A stretch of DNA of 64,000 bases from Yinghuangia soli (GTDB lineage Bacteria; Actinomycetota; Actinomycetes; Streptomycetales; Streptomycetaceae): positions 1 to 64,000 of the forward strand of contig NZ_JAKFHA010000012.1 in NCBI RefSeq assembly GCF_021502675.1, written 5' to 3'. Both the position numbers and the translations under genes were made by a program. Of this stretch, positions 48,825 through 64,000 are shown piece after piece. The notes below the pieces were generated by a model. The model was not told the origin of the DNA. It saw only the letters and a list, made by a program, of their open reading frames with translations, and ran no database searches. Positions within the stretch are counted from its first letter, which is position 1. Every line of letters begins with the position of its first letter.

Positions 48825-49718
48825 TCAGCTCATGGACTCCTGGATGATGCGGGCGTAGTTCCATTCGCCGCGCTCGTTCGGGTGCAGCGGGGCGGCCAGG
48901 TTGGTGGGGACGTAGCCCTCGACCCAGCGGTCGGACGGCGCCCGGCAGGCGTCGTGGCCCAGACTCGGGGTGCGGACGTCGACATACTCGGCGCCGTGCG
49001 CGGCGGCCTGGGCGGCGATCACGCCGTTGAGCCGGTCCACGTTGCCCTGCAGGTAGTTGGCATCGGTGTTGAGGATCGGCTGGATCGGCCAGCAGCCGCC
49101 GGCCTTGATGTAGAGGCCGTAGCCGGTGACGACCACGCGCGCGTTGGGGGCCTTGGCGTGGATGCCGTCCAGCACCGCGGCGAGCTTCGGGCCGACCGCG
49201 TCCACACGCTGCGCGACCTGGTCGACGCCGCCCGCGGTGAACCTGCTCTTGCAGGTCGCGGCGAACGGGTTGAGCTGCATGCAGTCGTTGGCGATGCCGA
49301 CCAGCCCGGCGTCGTTGCCGCCGATGGTCAGGGTCACCAGGGTCGTGTCGGTGCCCAGCGCGTCGAACTGCGGGGGAGCTTCGCCCATGTCGACGTCGAG
49401 GAGCGAGAGCGGCTGCGGCGAGGTCATGTCCTTGGTGTCCGCGCCGCTGCAGGTGACGTCGCGGAGCTCGTCCACGCCCAGCCGCTCGGCGAGTTCGTGC
49501 GGGTAGTTGTTGGTCGAGCGGGCGCAGGCCACGGGCCCGGTGATCGGCAGGATCAGCGGGCCGGACGCCATCGAGTCGCCCAGCGCGACATAGACCTGGC
49601 GCGGCTCGGCGGCGGTCGAGGTGCCCGCTTGGGTGCCGAAGACGAGACCGAGCAGCGCGGCGGCCGCCAGGACGCCGCGGCCGATACGCCGGAACCCTGG
49701 CCGGTGCGAGGACTTCAC
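48825..49718 (-). CDS. Secreted SGNH/GDSL esterase
   Basis: A 297-residue protein with a signal peptide (FRRIGRGVLAAAALLGLVFGTQAGTSTAAE). SGNH blocks are visible: ALGDSMASG (nucleophile Ser), TIGGNDAG and the C-terminal LHPNERG with the catalytic His. Several cysteines (VACARS, VTCSG, NDCMQ, ATCKS, GGCWP, DACRA) suggest disulfides, as in Streptomyces extracellular lipases. GTG 49718 has GCAGGAGG upstream; a longer frame adds 15 residues without a better start. It probably hydrolyses extracellular esters. Confidence 0.9.
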   Translation of the reverse strand: MKSSHRPGFRRIGRGVLAAAALLGLVFGTQAGTSTAAEPRQVYVALGDSMASGPLILPITGPVACARSTNNYPHELAERLGVDELRDVTCSGADTKDMTSPQPLSLLDVDMGEAPPQFDALGTDTTLVTLTIGGNDAGLVGIANDCMQLNPFAATCKSRFTAGGVDQVAQRVDAVGPKLAAVLDGIHAKAPNARVVVTGYGLYIKAGGCWPIQPILNTDANYLQGNVDRLNGVIAAQAAAHGAEYVDVRTPSLGHDACRAPSDRWVEGYVPTNLAAPLHPNERGEWNYARIIQESMS

Positions 49719-49913
49719 ATTGCCTCCTGCGGTGTGGCGGGTCAGCGAATTGCGCTGTCGCACATCATGGCGGCTCGTGATCCCCGGCTTAACTGGCCGG
49801 TAACGTAGAGTTCGGCAGCCTGCTTTGTGACCGGTGACAAGCGAACCGCCCTGGCGCTTCGCAGAGTTGCCGAAGCATCAGGGCGGCATGTCCGCGGCGC
49901 GCGAACGCCGGAG

Positions 49914-49969: not shown

Positions 49970-51820
49970 TCAGAACTGGCTGTTGCGGAAGGGCTGTTCC
50001 GGTCGGCCGAGGTTGGGCTTGCCGAGCACGTCACGCGACGAAAGCGCGTAGATGCCGTGGTTGGTGAACACCCAGACGATGTTCCGGTCCCACTCCGTGT
50101 AGACGCCGTGCGTCTGGTTGCCCTTGGCCCAGTCCGGGAACGATCCGTCCTCGCTGGGCCAGTCCTGGGTCTTCGTGCCGTACGCCTTCGGCACGAAGTA
50201 CGCCTCGATCTCCGGGCGGGCCGGGTTCTTCACGTCGAAGAACTGCGCGCCCGCGTTGTAGAACCCGTAGACCAGGGTGCCGTTGTCCGGCTTGCCGGGG
50301 TTCGTGTAGTACCCGGTGCGCTTCGGCCCGAAGCTGCCGCGCCGCTGGCAGTAGTCGGTGATGCCGGACGTCTTCGGCGGGGTCGGCCGCGGAAGCTGCC
50401 CGACCACGCGCGGCTTGGCGGGGTCGCGCGCGTCGATCTGCCAGATCGGCTTGTACGGCTCGTAGCAGTCCTCGGTCAGCGGGTAGCCGGACACGTAGAT
50501 CATGCCGGTCTTCTCGTACTGCGACACGTCGATGTTGTCGCCCTCGGTGCCGGCCACCGACGGCGGCAGGTCGAGGTGGCTGACCTGCTTCATGTCCGCC
50601 GGGTTCGAGATGTCCAGCACGGTCAGGCCGAAGCCGCCCTGGATCGCGAAGCCGTACTTGCCGCCCTGCTCCACCGGCTTGGGGATGAACAGCGGCATGC
50701 GCGCGCCCATCCAGCTGGTGCGGTTGCCGCAGCGCGGGTTCTTCGCGTACGCGGCCTCCTCACCCTTGACCTGGCCTTCGAGGTGCCAGGTGTCGAGCAG
50801 CTTGGGCTTGGCCGGGTCCGACATGTCCCACGACTGGTAGCCGGCCGAGTGCAGGTTGGTCGGGTACTCGGTGTTGGCGTAGGTGTCGTTCGGTGCGACG
50901 GCGATGAACAGGTACTTGCCGCCGTCCCAGTAGGGCACGTCCAGCGAGCCGGAACCCTGCTGCGGGTTGGCCAGGTCGCTGTTGAGCGGGTCGGCCTGCG
51001 TGGAGTCCGTGCTGACTGTGGACAGCAGCTGCCAGTCCTTCTTGGTCGGGCCGTTCAGCTTGAAGACCTTGAAGCCCTTCAGGCCCTTCTTGGCGCGGAC
51101 CGCGGCGACGCCGGCCGGGTTGTCGAACTTGTCCTGGCCGGGCTCGGGGTGCAGCTCGGAGATCTGCCGCTTGTCCTCGAACGACATGACCATGACGTAC
51201 GAGTTGAGCTTCGCGCTCCACTGGATCGTGGTGGCGCCCCAGTAGTCGTACGCCGCCCACGAGCCGTTGGCCTTGGACTCGTCGCCGTCCACGTCGTTGC
51301 GGCTCATGCGCTCGACGACCTGGACGTTCTTGACGTCGGTGATGTCGTAGACGCGGCCCTCGGACCGGTCGTACTGGAACATGTACCGGCGGCCGCCGAA
51401 GTCGACGATGTTCTGCCACGTGTGGAAGAAGTCCGGCGTGAAGGCCTCGCCTTCGTAAGCCGCTTCGATCTTGACGTTCTTGCTGTACGACCGGGTGTCG
51501 TAGTCGTCCATGCGGCCCGGGAACGGGTGCGGGTTCTCCTCGTCGACCGGGGTCGAGGCGGGGTGCAGGAAGCTGCCGTCGAGCTGCATGCCGTAGCTGC
51601 CGGGGTCGGCGGCCTGCGGACGGCTGTTGTCGCACACGAACGGGATGTTCGGGTCGTTGGCGGCGCTGCCCGGTGTGGCGGCCGCTGGGGCGGCGTCCGC
51701 GGCCGAGCCGCCGGTCGGGGCGAGCAGCGCGGCCGTGGTGGCGGTGGCCACGGCCGCGGCCACGAACGCCCCGGATCTGCGGGACAGCGGGATGCCGGGG
51801 ATGGTGCGGGGGACGCGCAT
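49970..51820 (-). CDS. Secreted LVIVD-repeat protein
   Basis: A 616-residue protein with a signal peptide (RRSGAFVAAAVATATTAALLAPTGGSAADAA). The mature part holds LVIVD-type beta-propeller blades such as LTVLDISNPADMKQVSHL, SWDMSDPAKPKLLDTW, WQIDARDPAKPRVVGQL and FFDVKNPARPEIEAYF. These repeats are common in large actinobacterial surface proteins of unknown role. The Arg pair in SRRSG hints at possible Tat export. AAGGAC precedes ATG 51820. The downstream hairpin ends the transcript. Confidence 0.85.
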   Translation of the reverse strand: MRVPRTIPGIPLSRRSGAFVAAAVATATTAALLAPTGGSAADAAPAAATPGSAANDPNIPFVCDNSRPQAADPGSYGMQLDGSFLHPASTPVDEENPHPFPGRMDDYDTRSYSKNVKIEAAYEGEAFTPDFFHTWQNIVDFGGRRYMFQYDRSEGRVYDITDVKNVQVVERMSRNDVDGDESKANGSWAAYDYWGATTIQWSAKLNSYVMVMSFEDKRQISELHPEPGQDKFDNPAGVAAVRAKKGLKGFKVFKLNGPTKKDWQLLSTVSTDSTQADPLNSDLANPQQGSGSLDVPYWDGGKYLFIAVAPNDTYANTEYPTNLHSAGYQSWDMSDPAKPKLLDTWHLEGQVKGEEAAYAKNPRCGNRTSWMGARMPLFIPKPVEQGGKYGFAIQGGFGLTVLDISNPADMKQVSHLDLPPSVAGTEGDNIDVSQYEKTGMIYVSGYPLTEDCYEPYKPIWQIDARDPAKPRVVGQLPRPTPPKTSGITDYCQRRGSFGPKRTGYYTNPGKPDNGTLVYGFYNAGAQFFDVKNPARPEIEAYFVPKAYGTKTQDWPSEDGSFPDWAKGNQTHGVYTEWDRNIVWVFTNHGIYALSSRDVLGKPNLGRPEQPFRNSQF

Positions 51821-51970
51821 AAGGACGGGTCCTTCCGTCGCGGGACTCCTAGGGGACATGTGCGGTGGTGCAGACCTGCGGTCGTGCGCGGCATGTTGCG
51901 CTCACCTGGCAGGTACGAACTCGGGGGAATGCCGCGTATCTGGAGGAATTGCAGGAATGTGGGGTGTGTT

Positions 51971-52047: not shown

Positions 52048-53310
52048 TCAGGTGACCGCGGAGCGGACGGCGAACCTCTCGTCGGTGTACTCGCCGGTGG
52101 CGGTGATCTCGCGCAGCGCCTCGACCGCCGCGAACACGTCGCGGTGCGTCACGTACAGCGCGTTGAACCCGAAGCGCAGGATGTCCGGCGCCCGCATGTC
52201 GCCGATGAACCCGCGTTCGATGTGCGCCTGCACGATCGGGTACGCGTGCTCGTGCCGCAGCGAGACCTGGCTGCCCCGGCGTTCCGGTTCGCGGGGCGTG
52301 GCGACCGTGAAGCCGAGGCCGTCCAGCATCGCGTCCGCGCAGTCCAGGAAAAGCCCGGTCAGGGACAGGGACTTCGCCCGCAGCGCGGCCATGTCCACGC
52401 CGTCGAAGGCGGTGAGGGCCGCCTCCAACGCGAGCATCGACAGCAGCGGCGGCGTACCGATCCGGGCCCGCGCGATGCCCGGGGCCGGCGCGTACGTCGA
52501 CTGCATCGCGAACGGCTCGGCATGCCCATGCCAGCCGGTCACGGCGTGGTCGAACGCGTCCTGGTGGCGCTCCGCGACGTAGATGAACGCGGGCGCTCCG
52601 GGCCCGCCGGACAGGTATTTGTAGCCGCAGCCGACCGCGAGGTCCGCGCCGATCGCGTCGAGGCCGACCGGCAGCGCGCCGGCTGCGTGGCACAGGTCCC
52701 ACAGGAACAGCGCCCCGACCTCGTGCGCCGCCGCGGTGAGCGCCGCCATGTCGGCGAGTTCGCCGGTGCGGTAGTCCACCGGGCCGTACGCGGCGACCGC
52801 CACCCGGTGGCCCTCCGCGGCCAGCACGTCGGCCAGTTCGCCGACCGGCACGCGGCGCACGGTCAGCCCCAGCATGCGGGCCACCGAGTCGGCGATGTAC
52901 TGGTCGGTGGGGAAGTGGTCCGGGTCGGTCAGCAGCACCTGCCGGTCCGGGCGCAGCCGGGCGGCCGCGGTCAGCGCGTTGAACAACTGCACGCTGGTCG
53001 AGTCCCCGCACGCCACCTGGCCGGGCGCGGCGCCGATCAGCCGGCCGATGGTGTCGCCGATCCGCAGCGGCGCACCCCACCAGTCGTTGTCGTTCCACGA
53101 CCGGATCAGGTCGGTGCCCCACTGGCGGCGCACCGCGTCCTCGACCGCCGCGGGCACGGCGGCCGGCAGCGCGCCGAGCGAGTTGCCGTCCAGGTAGACG
53201 ACGCCCTTCGGGAGCAGGAAGCGGTCGCGCAGCGCGGCCAGTCCGTCGGCCGCGTCCAGCGCCTCGGCGCGGGCCGCGAGGGCGGCGGGCCCGGTTTCGG
53301 TGACGGTCAC
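52048..53310 (-). CDS. kynU: Kynureninase
   Basis: A 420-residue PLP enzyme of kynureninase type and length. [64 protein letters not shown] and the PLP lysine in [19 protein letters not shown] are diagnostic. It splits 3-hydroxykynurenine (or kynurenine) into 3-hydroxyanthranilate (or anthranilate) and alanine. It is the last gene of the operon; its GTG overlaps the aldolase stop (GTGA at 53307-53310). Since the operon encodes breakdown of 3-hydroxyanthranilate, 3-hydroxykynurenine is the likely substrate. Confidence 0.96.
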
Positions 53311-54464
53311 TTCGCCTCTTCCTTCGGTGCGGCGTTCTCGGCGGCGCGGGCCGCCAGGTCCAGGGCGACGTCCGGCAGCAGGTCCTCCTGGCCGCCGACC
53401 ATGCGGCGCGCCCCGACCTCGACGAGGATGTCGCGGGTGTCCACGCCGTACCGCGCCGATGCCGACTCGGCATGCCGCAGGAAGCTGGAGTACACCCCGG
53501 CGTAGCCGAGCGTCAGCGTCTCCCGGTCCACCCGCACCGGGCGGTCCTGGGTCGGCCGGACCAGGTCCTCGGCGGCGTCCATCAGCGGGAACAACGCGCA
53601 GCCGTGCTCCCAGCCGAGCAGGTCCATGACCGCCACGAACGGCTCCAGCGGCGCGTTCCCGGCCCCCGCGCCCTGGCCGGCCAGCGACGCGTCCACCCGC
53701 CGGACGCCGTTCTCGACCGCGACCACGCTGTTCGCCACGCCGAGCGCCAGGTTGTGGTGCGCGTGGATGCCGATCTCGGTCTCCGCGTCGAGCACGTCGC
53801 GGTACGCCCGCACCCGGTCGCGCACTCCGTCCATGGTGAGCCGGCCGCCGGAGTCCACGACGTACACGCAGTTCGCGCCGTACGACTCCATCAGCTTGGC
53901 CTGCGCGGCCAGCCGCGCCGGTTCGGCCATGTGCGACATCATCAGGAACCCCGAGACGTCCATGCCCAGTTCGCGGGCCAGGCCGATGTGCTGCGCGGAG
54001 ATGTCCGCCTCGGTGCAGTGCGTCGCGATGCGGATCGACACCACGCCCAGGTCGCGGGCCCGGCGCAGATCGTCGGCGGTGCCGATGCCGGGCAGCAGCA
54101 GCGAGGTCAGCTTGGCCCGGGTGAGCACCGAGGCCGCGGCCTCCAGCCATTCCCAGTCGGTGTGTTCGCCCGGTCCGTAGGTGAGGGAGCCGCCGGACAG
54201 GCCGTCGCCGTGCGCGACCTCGACCGCGTCCACCCCGGCGGCGTCCAACGCCGCGGCGATGGCCCGCACTTGGTCGAGGGTGTAGCTGTGCCGGATGGCG
54301 TGCATGCCGTCCCGCAGGGTCACATCCTGCACGTACACCCGCGGCGGCAGCGCAGCGGCGGTATCACCCGTGGCTGCGTTCTCCTGGGTCCCCTGGTTCT
54401 CCCGGTTCGCCCGGTTCTCCTGACCGGAGTCCGGGCCGGACGGGGCTATCTGTTCGGCGGTCAC
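53307..54464 (-). CDS. 4-hydroxy-2-oxovalerate aldolase
   Basis: A 385-residue DmpG/MhpE-type class II aldolase. [20 protein letters not shown] holds the catalytic Arg-Asp, [20 protein letters not shown] and [16 protein letters not shown] carry the metal ligands, and the C-terminal communication domain ([38 protein letters not shown]) pairs with acetaldehyde dehydrogenase. It splits 4-hydroxy-2-oxovalerate into pyruvate and acetaldehyde. About 40 poorly conserved residues (Gln/Asn/Glu-rich) precede the domain. GTG 54464 overlaps the dehydrogenase stop. Confidence 0.96.
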
Positions 54465-55398
54465 GCGGCGACCCTCCCGGCGGCCAGGTACTCGGCGGTG
54501 CGTAGCGCGGCCGCCGTCATGATGTCGAGGTTCCCGGCGTACGCGGGGAGGTAGTGCGCCGCTCCCTCGACTTCGAGGAACACGCTGATCTGCCAGCCGC
54601 CTTCGGCCAGTCCGGCGAGCTTCGCCGCGGGCGCGCCCGCGGGCACCGGCAGGAACTGGACCTCCTGCTTGAGGCGGTAGCCCGGGACGTACTCGCGCAC
54701 CCGCTCGACCATGCCGTGCACGGACGCCTTGACCTGCTCCGGATCGCAGTCCGGGACCAGGCAGTGCACCGTGTCCCGCATGATCAGCGGCGGTTCGGCC
54801 GGGTTGAGCACGATGATCGCCTTGCCGCGCCGCGCGCCGCCGAGTTCCTCCAGGGCGCGGGCCGTGGTCTCGGTGAACTCGTCGATGTTGGCGCGCGTCC
54901 CGGGGCCGGCCGAGCGCGACGATATGGACGCCACGATCTCGGCGTACGCGACGGGCGTGACCGCGCTGACCGCAGCCACCATCGGCACGGTCGCCTGGCC
55001 CCCGCAGGTGACCATGTTGACGTTCACGCTGTCCAGATGGGCGCCGAGATTGACCGGCGGCACCACGTAGGGGCCGATCGCGGCCGGCGTCAGGTCCACC
55101 ATGCGCTTGCCCAGCGGCACGAGGGTGTCGTGGTGGTGCCGGTGGGCGCGCGCCGAGGTGGCGTCGAAGACGAACGCGATGTCATCGAACTCGTCCAGCT
55201 TGACGAGCCCTTCGACCCCGGCTGCGCTGGTGGCCACGCCGAACCGGCGGGCCCTGGCCAGGCCGTCGGACTCCGGGTCGATACCGATCATGGCGGCCAC
55301 TTCGAGCGTCTCGGAGCCGCGGATCACCTTGATCATCAGGTCCGTGCCGATGTTGCCCGAACCGATGATCGCGACCTTGGTGCGCGGGGTGCGCGTCG

Positions 55399-55402
<4 letters not shown>
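54461..55402 (-). CDS. Acetaldehyde dehydrogenase (acetylating)
   Basis: A 313-residue DmpF/MhpF-type enzyme: NAD loop [16 protein letters not shown], catalytic Cys in [13 protein letters not shown], and [19 protein letters not shown] at the end. It converts the acetaldehyde channelled from the aldolase to acetyl-CoA, and the two proteins are known to form a complex. GGAGGCTT precedes ATG 55402, which overlaps the stop of the decarboxylase gene. Confidence 0.97.
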
Positions 55403-58385
<2,983 letters not shown>

Positions 58386-58389
<4 letters not shown>

Positions 58390-59219
58390 GCCCCGGCCTC
58401 CTCGTCCGTGCCGGATCCGGCCGCCGGACGCCCGAAGACCGCCCGCACGCTGCCCAACCCCTGGATGCGTGCCTCGAAGGCGTCCCCGGGCGCCGCGGCG
58501 ACCATCGGGCCCAGCGCGCCGGTCAGCACGGTGTCGCCCGCCCGGAGCGGGTCGCCCACCGCGGCCAGTGCGTCGGCCAGCCAGAGCGCGGCGTTCAGCG
58601 GATGCCCGAGGCAGGCCGCGCCCGCGCCCGTGGACACCTGCTCGCCGCGCCGCTCCAGGACCATGCCCGCGGTGCGCAGGTCCACATCGCGCAGCAGTGT
58701 CGGCCGCCCGCCCAGCACGTACAGGCCGGACGAGGCGTTGTCGGCGACCGTGTCGACGATCGTGATGTCCCAGTCCGCGACCCGGCTGCCGACCACCTCG
58801 ATCGCGGGCAGCACGAACGCGGTCGCGCGGATCAGGTCCGCCACCGTGTTGCGCTCGTGCGGCAGGTCGTGTTCGAGCACCAGCGCGACCTCGGCCTCGG
58901 CGCGCGGCTGCAGCACCGCACCGTGCGGGATCTCCGCCCCGTCCGGCACCGCCATGTCGTCGAAGAGCACCCCGAAGTCCGGTGTGTCCACGCCGAGTTG
59001 CTTCTGCACGGCAAGCGAGGTCAGGCCGATCTTGCGGCCCACCACGCGGCGCCCCGACGTCATCCGGCGCTCGGTCTGGATCTGCTGCACCGCATACGCC
59101 GCGGCGACGTCGCCGGGCGGCAGGATGTCGCGCACCGGCGGACACGGGGTGCCGTTGCGGCGCGCCCAGTCCAGCCGGTCCGCGGCTTCCACAAGGACCT
59201 TGCGGTCGGTCGTCGTCAC
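58386..59219 (-). CDS. 2-oxopent-4-enoate hydratase
   Basis: A 277-residue paralogue of the decarboxylase: [49 protein letters not shown] is typical of DmpE/MhpD hydratases, as are [16 protein letters not shown] and [14 protein letters not shown]. It adds water to 2-oxopent-4-enoate to give 4-hydroxy-2-oxovalerate for the aldolase. GTG 59219 overlaps the dehydrogenase stop (GTGA). Confidence 0.92.
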
Positions 59220-60664
59220 AGCTTCACGCACACATTCGTCGGTTCGGAGAAGAAGTCCAGGGAGTGCATGCCGCCTTCGCGGCCGATGCCGGAGGCCTTG
59301 ACGCCGCCGAACGGGGTCCGCAGGTCGCGCAGGTTCCAGCAGTTCACCCAGGAGATGCCGACCTCGAGCTTCGGCGCGACCCGGTGCGCGCGCGAGACGT
59401 CGGTGGTCCACAGTGACGCGGCCAGGCCGTACGGGCTGTCGTTGGCCAGCCGCACGGCCTCCTCCTCGGTATCGAAGGGGGCGACGTGGCAGACCGGGCC
59501 GAAGATCTCCTCGCGCACCACCGGATGCGACTCGGGCAGCCCGGCCAGCACGGTGGGCTGCACGAAGTAGCCGCCGTCGCGGTCGTCGCCGAAGTACGGG
59601 ATGCCGCCGCCGGCCAGGACCGCCCCGTCGCGCGCGGCCTGCTCGTAGTAGCCGAGCACCTTGGCGCGGTGCTCCGCGGAGACCAGCGGGCCCATCCGGG
59701 TGCTCTCGTCGTACGGCCGGCCCAGGACCAGTTCCTTGGCCCGGGCGGCCAGCGCGGCGGCGAAGTCGTCGAACACCGCGCGTTCGACGTACACGCGCTC
59801 GGTGCACAGGCACACCTGGCCGGCGTTGGTGAACGCGGAGGCCAGGGTGCCCTCGACGGCCTTGTCGAGGTCCGCGTCGGCGAACACCAGTGCGGCGTTC
59901 TTGCCGCCGAGTTCGAACGAGACCGGGGTCAGGTTGCGCGCGGCGGCGCGCATGATGGCGGTTCCGGTGCGGGTCTCCCCGGTGAACGCGATGGCGTCCA
60001 CGCCCGGGTGGGAGGTCAGGAACTCGCCCGCGCTGTCCGTGCCGAGTCCGTGCACCAGGTTGAACACGCCGGCCGGGACCCCGGCCTCGTCCATCACCTC
60101 CGCCAGCAGGGTCGCCGTGGACGGGGTGAGTTCGGACGGCTTGGCCACCACCGTGTTGCCCGCCGCGAGCGCCGGGGCGACCTTCCAGGTCAGCAGGAGC
60201 AGCGGCAGGTTCCACGGGGAGACCACGGCCACCACGCCCAGCGGGCGGCGCACCGTGTAGTTGAGTGCGCCCAGGCCGTCCGGGGTGGTCGTGCGATACG
60301 ACTCCTCCGCGCGGCCCAGCGCCAGGTCGGCGTAGCTGCGGAAGTTCGCGATGCCGCGCGGGATGTCGACCGTCGAGGCGAGTGCGTACGGCTTGCCGGT
60401 GTCCGCGATCTCGGCCGCCGCGAACTCCTCGAAGCGCGCCTCGATGCCGTCCGCGACGCGCCGCAGGATGCGGCACCGCTCCGCGGTGTCCAGATCGCCC
60501 CACGGGCCGGCCAGGGCGCTGCGGGCGGCCGCCACGGCGCGGCCGACGGTCTCCCGGCCTGCCTGCGGGACGGTGTCGAACGCGGTCCCGGTGACCGGGT
60601 CGGTCAACGCGAAGGGTTCGCCCTCGCTTTCGGCCTCGAACCGGCCGCCGATGTAGTGCTGCAT
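59216..60664 (-). CDS. 2-aminomuconate-6-semialdehyde dehydrogenase
   Basis: A 482-residue aldehyde dehydrogenase of the hydroxymuconic/aminomuconic semialdehyde group (starts [11 protein letters not shown]). NAD motif FTGETRTG, catalytic Glu in [18 protein letters not shown] and catalytic Cys in [15 protein letters not shown] are present. It oxidises 2-aminomuconate semialdehyde to 2-aminomuconate. It is the first gene of the operon, divergent from the LysR gene across 143 bp; no clear ribosome site precedes ATG 60664, so a leaderless or weakly led message is possible. Confidence 0.93.
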
Positions 60665-60696
60665 ACGTGCATCATGGCGGCGGGCAGCCATAACCA

Positions 60697-60722
60697 GCCA
60701 ATGCCCGTTTGGCGCTGTGCCA
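60697..60722. promoter_or_regulatory. LysR operator candidate between the catabolic operon and its regulator
   Basis: Three half-sites are arranged in series: GCCAA (60697-60701), TTGGC (60709-60713) and GCCA (60719-60722), giving the dyads GCCAA-N7-TTGGC and TGGC-N5-GCCA. A TATACT -10-like box for the LysR gene follows at 60735-60740. This fits a LysR recognition site placed 33 bp upstream of the operon's first codon. Confidence 0.5.
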
Positions 60723-60807: not shown

Positions 60808-61740
60808 ATGATCGACCTGCTCGACGGGCGGCTGAAATTCCGCCACCTGACCCTGGCCGTGGCGGTCGCCGAACAGGGCAGCGTGGTGCGTGCCGCCGAG
60901 ACGCTGCACCTGACCCAGCCCGCCGCCACCCGCACCCTGCGCGAGCTGGAGGACCTGGTCGGCGCCCGCCTCTTCGACCGCGGACCGCGCGGCATGACCG
61001 CGACCGTGTCCGGGGAGGCGTTCGTCGACCACGCACGCGTCGTGCTCGCCGAGGTCCGGCGGGCCGGCGACCACCTCGCCGGCCTGCGCGAGGGCCAGAC
61101 CGGGACGGTCACGGTCGGCACCCTCCTGGCCGGCACCGCCGTCCTGCTGCCGCGCGCGGTCGCGGCCCTCAAGCGCGAGCGGCCGCGCATCACCGTGGTG
61201 GTCCGCGAGGCCACCTACGACGTCCTGTACCAGCAGCTCCTGTCCGGCGAGGTCGACGTCGTCGTCGGCCGGCTGAGCCCGCCGCCGGAGCCGGGCCGGG
61301 TACGCCAGCACGCGCTGTACCACGAGCCGATCCGCCTCATGGCCCGGCGCGGCCACCCGCTGCACACCGGGCGCCGCCTCGCGCTCGCCGACACGCTCGC
61401 GCACCCGTGGATCCTGCCGCTCGAACAGACCACGCTGCGCGGCGAACTGGAAGGCCTGTTCGACCGCAGCGGCCTCCCGCTGCCCGCCGACCGGGTCGAG
61501 TGCACCTCGATCCTGACCGTGCGCGCCCTGCTGCTGGCCACCGACATGATCGCCGCGCTGCCCGAGCTGGTCATCTCCGGCGACGACCAGCTCGCGGCGC
61601 TGCCCGTGCCGCTCGAATCGGTCCGCCGCACGGTCGGCACGACGCTCGTCGCGGACCGCACGAGCACGCCGGCCGTCCGCGAGTTCCTGCGGCACCTGGA
61701 GTCCGAGGGCGGCGAACTGCGCGCCGCGCTCGACGGGTGA
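60808..61740 (+). CDS. LysR-family transcriptional regulator of the kynurenine/3-hydroxyanthranilate operon
   Basis: A 310-residue LysR protein. The winged helix is in LKFRHLTLAVAVAEQGSVVRAAETLHLTQPAATRTLRELEDLVGARLFDRGPRGM, followed by a two-lobed inducer-binding domain (VTVGTLLAGTAVLLPRAVAALKRERPRITVVV...). It belongs to the GbpR/PcaQ-like side of the family, which often controls aromatic breakdown. GGAAGG precedes ATG 60808. Its divergent position makes it the likely activator of the nine genes, with a pathway intermediate as inducer; this is inference. Confidence 0.93.
   Translation: MIDLLDGRLKFRHLTLAVAVAEQGSVVRAAETLHLTQPAATRTLRELEDLVGARLFDRGPRGMTATVSGEAFVDHARVVLAEVRRAGDHLAGLREGQTGTVTVGTLLAGTAVLLPRAVAALKRERPRITVVVREATYDVLYQQLLSGEVDVVVGRLSPPPEPGRVRQHALYHEPIRLMARRGHPLHTGRRLALADTLAHPWILPLEQTTLRGELEGLFDRSGLPLPADRVECTSILTVRALLLATDMIAALPELVISGDDQLAALPVPLESVRRTVGTTLVADRTSTPAVREFLRHLESEGGELRAALDG

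Positions 61741-61824: not shown

Positions 61825-64000
<2,176 letters not shown>

Follow-up and report, generated by a model that had tools for sequence, protein, structure and literature searches.

The window analysed here is the whole of a 64,000-nucleotide stretch of the Yinghuangia soli genome (contig NZ_JAKFHA010000012.1), and its minus strand carries, from 60664 to 52048, a nine-gene operon for the catabolism of 3-hydroxyanthranilate (3-HAA). Our main finding is that this operon looks like one part of a larger unit. Directly downstream of its last gene, kynU, lies a gene for an exported beta-propeller protein of the LVIVD type (49970..51859, minus strand; 629 amino acids), and divergent from its first gene runs a gene for a LysR-type regulator (60808..61740, plus strand). 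At the sequence level, the propeller gene shares with the operon a promoter site, neighbouring genes and a distribution among species, even where the two are unlinked, and we propose it as the tenth gene of the regulon. The explanation that we favour, with slightly better than even confidence, is a LysR-linked regulon for the uptake and breakdown of extracellular kynurenine-type compounds. What the analysis adds is a proposed regulon with ten structural genes, one of them for a conserved exported protein, and a gap in the place of kynurenine 3-monooxygenase (KMO).

Results

The propeller gene tracks the operon across genomes

Occurrence was followed in a family sample of 150 genomes and a class sample of 394, which have some genomes in common. 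A clear 3-HAA dioxygenase was found in 14 of the 150 family genomes (53-100% identity) and one of the close type (67-100%) in nine; close orthologues of the propeller protein (72-100%) occur in exactly those nine and are missing from the remaining 141. The counts exclude weak propeller matches in three genomes (G023, G131 and G136; at most 45 bits) and 13 genomes whose only dioxygenase matches are weak (at most 28.3 bits). Across the class sample the dioxygenase accompanies the propeller gene in 9 of 10 genomes, against 26 of the 384 others (Fisher 1e-9, uncorrected for relatedness), the tenth propeller genome being one with a weaker, 257-bit match.

The full nine-gene order with its LysR gene is present in five family genomes: this one, its congener G001, G024, G109 and G147. 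The remaining four close-dioxygenase genomes belong to a single genus, here called the Embleya group, and their operon lacks the kynureninase gene; that of G004 and G030 also has no aldolase or acetaldehyde dehydrogenase gene adjacent to it. In all four the propeller gene is unlinked to the operon, which means separate contigs in three of them and a distance of 4.6 Mb on a single contig in G004 alone, and it stands divergent from a LysR gene whose product is 76-77% identical to that of the window.

A further 65 named loci were fetched together with the downstream propeller gene and are thus not a neutral sample; the nine-gene order recurs in 23 of them, twice with one inserted gene. It is also found on a Streptomyces cyaneofuscatus plasmid, where the nine genes are annotated one by one and kynU is followed by a 72% identical propeller gene, labelled "hypothetical protein", whose product shows a weak LVIVD repeat. 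The first-pass annotation of this DNA had thought such an arrangement notable in an actinomycete and had proposed a search for the same order in actinomycete genomes; that search has now been run, and its counts show the order not to be unusual. The propeller family itself reaches over four phyla, with members in Streptomyces, Actinomadura, Nonomuraea, Nocardia, Pseudomonas, Bowmanella, Lacimicrobium, Vibrio, Photobacterium, Acidovorax, Roseateles, Roseovarius, Cytobacillus and Acidobacteria.

A candidate LysR site is shared by linked and unlinked promoters

The regulator carries both PF00126 and PF03466 (scanned from 60802, two codons 5' of the start), and in relatives its gene adjoins either the operon or the propeller gene. 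Between it and the operon we find a 19-bp candidate LysR site, ACGGGCATTGGCTGGTTAT (60690..60708, minus strand; score 13.0). The underlying motif was derived by expectation maximisation on 21 LysR/operon promoters, the window's included, out of 37 promoter regions extracted. Training left out eight operon promoters that were near-duplicates, the LysR/kynU promoter of locus L092 and seven LysR/propeller promoters, three of which come from contigs identical to those of G020, G030 and G037. When both strands of 26 loci were scanned, 20 of 559,841 positions scored above 8 and all 20 lie at regulon promoters: eight used in training, one near-duplicate and 11 held out. The held-out hits include all four LysR/propeller promoters of the Embleya group (score 21.5) and all four of the unlinked operon promoters in the same genomes (9.2-12.3), with the other three at L092 (LysR/kynU-propeller promoter, 24.8), L138 (kynU-propeller promoter, 10.6) and the Actinomadura locus L098 (operon promoter, 12.0). 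Neither loci L059-L063, which are of the KMO type or diverge in other ways, nor the Actinomadura locus L096 had a position above 8. The window's own site is the sole position above 8 in its 64 kb and aligns with the corresponding site of relatives, most of whose sites score higher. Because the site is shared even by unlinked promoters, the operon, the regulator and the propeller gene look like one regulon, with binding of the regulator at the site predicted.

A relaxed form of the site, written after the window and Embleya sites had been seen, gave 24 hits in 10 of the 14 genomes searched, compared with six for the same pattern read backwards. Thirteen of the 24 are known operon or propeller promoters, among them the sole hit in each of G001, G024, G109 and G147. 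Beyond these, two hits fall in G140, which carries a KMO-type operon, and none of the 8 inspected among the 11 extra hits indicated a hydroxylase. The extra hits inspected in this genome are one within coding sequence, one without a clear gene and one, an exact consensus site at L169:7051 (G000:C10:147050), that lies 97 bp 5' of a gene for an SGNH/GDSL-like hydrolase (L169:7148-7984), which may be a further member of the regulon.

The called start of the first operon gene is 25 bp from the site here and at least 52 bp from it in the 20 other training promoters, also by called starts; a transcript that begins at this promoter (60664-60708) may be leaderless.

The nine genes encode a meta-cleavage route

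The nine frames are intact and co-directional, and adjacent genes overlap by 4 bp at seven of the eight junctions; the first-pass annotation had described them as mostly overlapping by 4 bp. The only exception is the RidA/dioxygenase junction, where the start used here leaves a gap of 53 bp and the ATG at 57119 one of 23 bp; a TTG at 57146 as alternative dioxygenase start would restore a 4-bp overlap. The annotated enzyme identities, the operon arrangement and the route from 3-HAA to central metabolites are also borne out, by matches to solved structures and by curated models.

In order of transcription (all minus strand), the first gene (59216..60664) encodes a 2-aminomuconate 6-semialdehyde dehydrogenase (best solved match 4npi, E 1.4e-197), which also passes the model for a sister activity, 2-hydroxymuconic semialdehyde dehydrogenase (784.5 bits; cut-off 693.25). 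Two FAH-type proteins follow, probably a 2-oxopent-4-enoate hydratase (58386..59219; PF01557; best NCBIfam model PRK11342, 348.8 bits against a cut-off of 350) and probably a 4-oxalocrotonate (2-oxo-3-hexenedioate) decarboxylase (57595..58389; best NCBIfam model dmpH, 230.7 bits against 350.55); as both scores fall below cut-off, the division of the two roles between them is given as likely. Next come a RidA-type 2-aminomuconate deaminase (57143..57598; PF01042; 6izh at E 2.5e-53, the next best match at 8.9e-22), the 3-HAA 3,4-dioxygenase (56430..57089; PF06052; 1yfu, E 9.9e-75; both NCBIfam cut-offs passed) and 2-amino-3-carboxymuconate 6-semialdehyde decarboxylase (ACMSD; 55399..56433; PF04909; 6mgt, E 1.6e-120), for which no NCBIfam model matched. 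The last three genes encode an acylating acetaldehyde dehydrogenase (54461..55402; TIGR03215), a 4-hydroxy-2-oxovalerate aldolase with a DmpG communication domain (53307..54464; TIGR03217) and a kynureninase with kynurenine-type residues (52048..53310; TIGR01814; the Pseudomonas fluorescens kynureninase 1qz9, E 4.7e-111), and these three, like the dioxygenase, score above the curated NCBIfam cut-offs. The operon is genuine and, judged by homology, its catabolic route is of a known kind. The earlier description stopped short of the full unit, which also takes in the LysR gene, its probable site and the exported tenth gene.

The propeller protein resembles an exported enzyme

No NCBIfam or Pfam model of its own matches the propeller protein, and nothing linking the LVIVD repeat to kynurenine catabolism was found in the literature library searched. 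We aligned it with 46 of the 65 called propeller frames, the remainder having been dropped as near-duplicates; the Nonomuraea dietziae locus L114 has no single called frame. A hydrophobic, signal-like N-terminal stretch is present in 41 of the 47 members (mean hydropathy of at least 1.4 over 14 residues), so that export is predicted from hydropathy alone. Invariant in all 47 are His146, Asp172, Asp416, Glu439, Asp441, Asp464, Glu467, Asp502, Asp542, Glu589 and Asp591, together with several Arg and Lys and two Cys.

The AlphaFold2 model (pLDDT 82, pTM 0.84) is mostly strand, and both it and its structural matches indicate a beta-propeller fold. In Foldseek the Sphingobium TCM1 phosphotriesterase ranks first with two of its chains (E 9e-14 and 1.1e-13), and the next proteins are other propellers, from E 3e-7. 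A single-sequence search of solved structures returned just an ABC-transporter chain (E 0.19). On the strength of the model and the conserved residues, the protein is probably an exported, metal-dependent enzyme.

In L114 (10001-11672) the propeller match comes in two pieces, perhaps through a frameshift.

A proposed entry into the pathway mostly without KMO

The first-pass annotation had placed 3-hydroxykynurenine at the head of the pathway. In the window's kynureninase, Trp, Gly and Thr align with W64, G281 and T282 of the P. fluorescens enzyme, residues that we take to mark a preference for kynurenine over 3-hydroxykynurenine. The kynureninases of two KMO-type operons have His and Ser-Asn at those positions, as does the human enzyme, His and Asn being what we assume to be the 3-hydroxykynurenine type; the window's enzyme has Trp and Thr in their stead.

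KMO was identified in the same two operons, and the protein from G140 aligns with solved KMOs at E 4e-101; in the homology search the single true orthologue besides the query scores 734.8 bits. All candidates were scored in this genome (G000), G024, G109 and G147, and three candidates per genome in the class sample, where misses are therefore possible. By homology, KMO was found in none of the nine propeller genomes of the family (best match 67.5 bits), and in this genome, which is about 96% complete, the best match reaches just 50.9 bits at 29% identity. Among the 35 dioxygenase-positive class genomes, KMO is present in one of nine with the propeller gene versus 19 of 26 without it (Fisher 0.002). 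Because the kynureninase is of the kynurenine type and no KMO was found in the nine genomes, 3-hydroxykynurenine is doubtful as the entry to the operon.

Elsewhere in the genome there is a tryptophan 2,3-dioxygenase (TDO) gene (G000:C2:48337-49110; 168.9 bits, Pfam cut-off 34.9) together with a second kynureninase gene (65% identical). Hydroxylases of the HpaB type, which we take to be the family assigned to anthranilate 3-hydroxylase, gave two matches in this genome, both below cut-off (best E 5.8e-4), and exceeded it in two of the 14 genomes searched (G030 and G140). 3-HAA may stem from the import of a substrate that is already 3-hydroxylated, from a hydroxylase outside the HpaB and KMO families or from the action of the propeller protein.

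Uptake genes adjoin the propeller gene

Near the propeller gene, kynU is found in 45 of the 65 loci, the dioxygenase gene in 38 and either or both in 49, while at least one of kynU, the dioxygenase, LysR and TDO is nearby in 55; KMO is near it in none of the 65. An amino-acid permease gene is present in 24 loci, and beta-proteobacterial loci have porin and binding-protein genes, with Acidovorax, Roseateles and relatives showing the order kynU, porin, propeller and then a gene resembling those for branched-chain amino-acid binding proteins (judged by its N-terminus). In three Vibrio loci the propeller gene is accompanied by TDO and by a gene whose match to a kynureninase domain is marginal. Since uptake genes thus adjoin the gene of an exported protein, the substrate of that protein is suggested to come from outside the cell.

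Several loci show features of their own. Downstream of the propeller gene in Bowmanella (L112:15469-19534) are genes of the FAA hydrolase, glyoxalase, nitroreductase and GST-like (by N-terminus) types, and related clusters stand upstream of kynU in Acidovorax and Roseateles. L089, on a contig titled Microtetraspora glauca, has a locus of Streptomyces form whose permease shares 94% identity with the S. cyaneofuscatus one, which points to transfer or to wrong labelling of the record. In Nonomuraea gerenzanensis the first cluster has another dioxygenase/aldehyde dehydrogenase pair (52% and 59%) close by (L004:15946-18059), in an 11.85-Mb record labelled as a plasmid.

Other genes near the operon

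Downstream of the propeller gene in the window lies a gene for a GDSL-type hydrolase (48825-49763, minus strand; PF13472) that is kept in the congener at 75% identity; it was not counted in the unit. On the far side of the regulator, a two-domain terpene cyclase gene (61825-63960, minus strand) scores 974.9 bits against a family 2 encapsulin cargo model with a cut-off of 1200, and a 69% relative stands beside the operon in G001.

Discussion

The regulon suggests a scheme in which the propeller protein, placed outside the membrane, would most likely be a hydrolase-like enzyme that depends on metal (the reaction itself is our guess) and would convert or release an extracellular kynurenine-type compound. 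The product would be imported by the amino-acid transporters whose genes often adjoin that of the propeller, and the nine enzymes would, by homology, cleave a kynurenine and degrade 3-HAA by meta-cleavage, yielding pyruvate and acetyl-CoA and releasing ammonia. The propeller protein would thereby mark an entry that is mostly without KMO. We put forward more tentatively, with somewhat less than even confidence, the wider idea that it founds an unrecognised enzyme family of Actinomycetota, Pseudomonadota, Bacillota and Acidobacteriota that performs the first, extracytoplasmic step of KMO-independent kynurenine or 3-HAA catabolism.

A number of observations weigh against this scheme. Six of 23 further propeller genomes carry KMO, namely three Actinomadura and three Nonomuraea, while 17, including a fourth Actinomadura, do not; in two of the KMO-bearing Nonomuraea (L105 and L114) the propeller-linked kynureninases are still of the kynurenine type. 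These six genomes, along with G009 and G082, which have a kynureninase of the 3-hydroxykynurenine type yet no KMO match, contradict any simple rule by which the propeller replaces KMO. Ten of the 65 propeller loci have no kynU, dioxygenase, LysR or TDO gene nearby, and many of the loci compared are close relatives of one another. If the kynureninase yields anthranilate, the 3-hydroxylation step is missing, no HpaB-type hydroxylase having been found above cut-off in the genome. The structural match to the phosphotriesterase, at 12% identity and a TM of 0.46 by query, is distant; when solved chains were searched by profile that enzyme alone came up, and not significantly (E 0.1 and 0.18), and the 50 rows shown by VIA-align are generic WD40 and various other propellers (Z 21-23) with the phosphotriesterase not among them.

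That the operon serves 3-hydroxykynurenine or 3-HAA by itself, with the propeller protein an incidental neighbour, strikes us as unlikely. The nine genes do make a coherent route on their own, and bacterial kynureninases of the kynurenine type may still take 3-hydroxykynurenine, so that an imported supply of it could be accepted. Chance adjacency is rejected, however, because co-occurrence, pairing with LysR and the shared site all hold where the propeller gene is unlinked. Somewhat less probable again is a non-catalytic role for the protein as an extracytoplasmic binder or carrier of the imported compound. Propellers often bind ligands without catalysis and transporter genes adjoin this one in many loci, but the dense set of charged residues that never varies among the 47 sequences, drawn from four phyla, is more like an active site and makes the protein look more like an enzyme than a binder.

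The least probable account, and one that we think improbable, makes the propeller protein a new oxygenase that adds the 3-hydroxyl to kynurenine or anthranilate and so functionally replaces KMO. The deficit of KMO in propeller genomes, in the class sample as in the nine family genomes, is what such a role would lead one to expect. Export, however, would make the supply of reductant awkward, the top structural match is a hydrolase, and 11 of the 65 loci have the propeller gene with kynU but without the dioxygenase nearby. The propeller gene is also absent from seven of the 15 class genomes that have the dioxygenase and lack KMO, and the KMO-bearing genomes among the further 23 count against this account too. 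The reading that we prefer remains an exported, hydrolase-like protein within a regulon for extracellular kynurenine-type compounds. If the protein is an enzyme, it would help to explain how KMO-less bacteria feed the pathway, would give a function to an unannotated family and would suggest that such compounds serve as a nutrient.

Comparison with known systems

The top Foldseek match of the propeller model, the Sphingobium sp. TCM1 phosphotriesterase or haloalkylphosphorus hydrolase (5hrm), is a seven-bladed propeller with a binuclear metal centre according to a title cited in PMC11656708; the comparison made here covers fold and sequence. In the anthranilate route of Geobacillus thermodenitrificans NG80-2, 3-HAA is likewise the substrate of ring cleavage, and the hydroxylase of anthranilate there is FAD-dependent (PMC4539516), whereas no HpaB-type hydroxylase rises above cut-off here. 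The KMO-type kynurenine operons of G140 (L059) and G033 (L061) share with the window the dioxygenase, ACMSD, RidA, aldehyde dehydrogenase and kynureninase, but they also encode TDO and KMO, their kynureninase has the other set of residues (34-38% identical), and both the propeller gene and the site are lacking.

The window's single cluster holds the dioxygenase, ACMSD, aminomuconate semialdehyde dehydrogenase and aminomuconate deaminase together with an aldolase and an acylating acetaldehyde dehydrogenase above curated cut-offs, as expected of the nba and onb pathways. The nba cluster of P. fluorescens KU-7, which degrades 2-nitrobenzoate via 3-HAA, reportedly has the same set of shared enzymes as the onb cluster. 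For onb, from Cupriavidus sp. ST-14 and also for 2-nitrobenzoate via 3-HAA, the set comprises the dioxygenase, ACMSD, aldehyde dehydrogenase, deaminase and four lower-pathway enzymes (PMC5817917). The nitroreductase and mutase of the two clusters are absent from the nine genes, to which this comparison is confined, and in their place stand a kynureninase, a divergent LysR gene and the exported propeller protein. The route is a known one, in a version that has a conserved regulator and DNA site along with an exported protein that follows the route across phyla.

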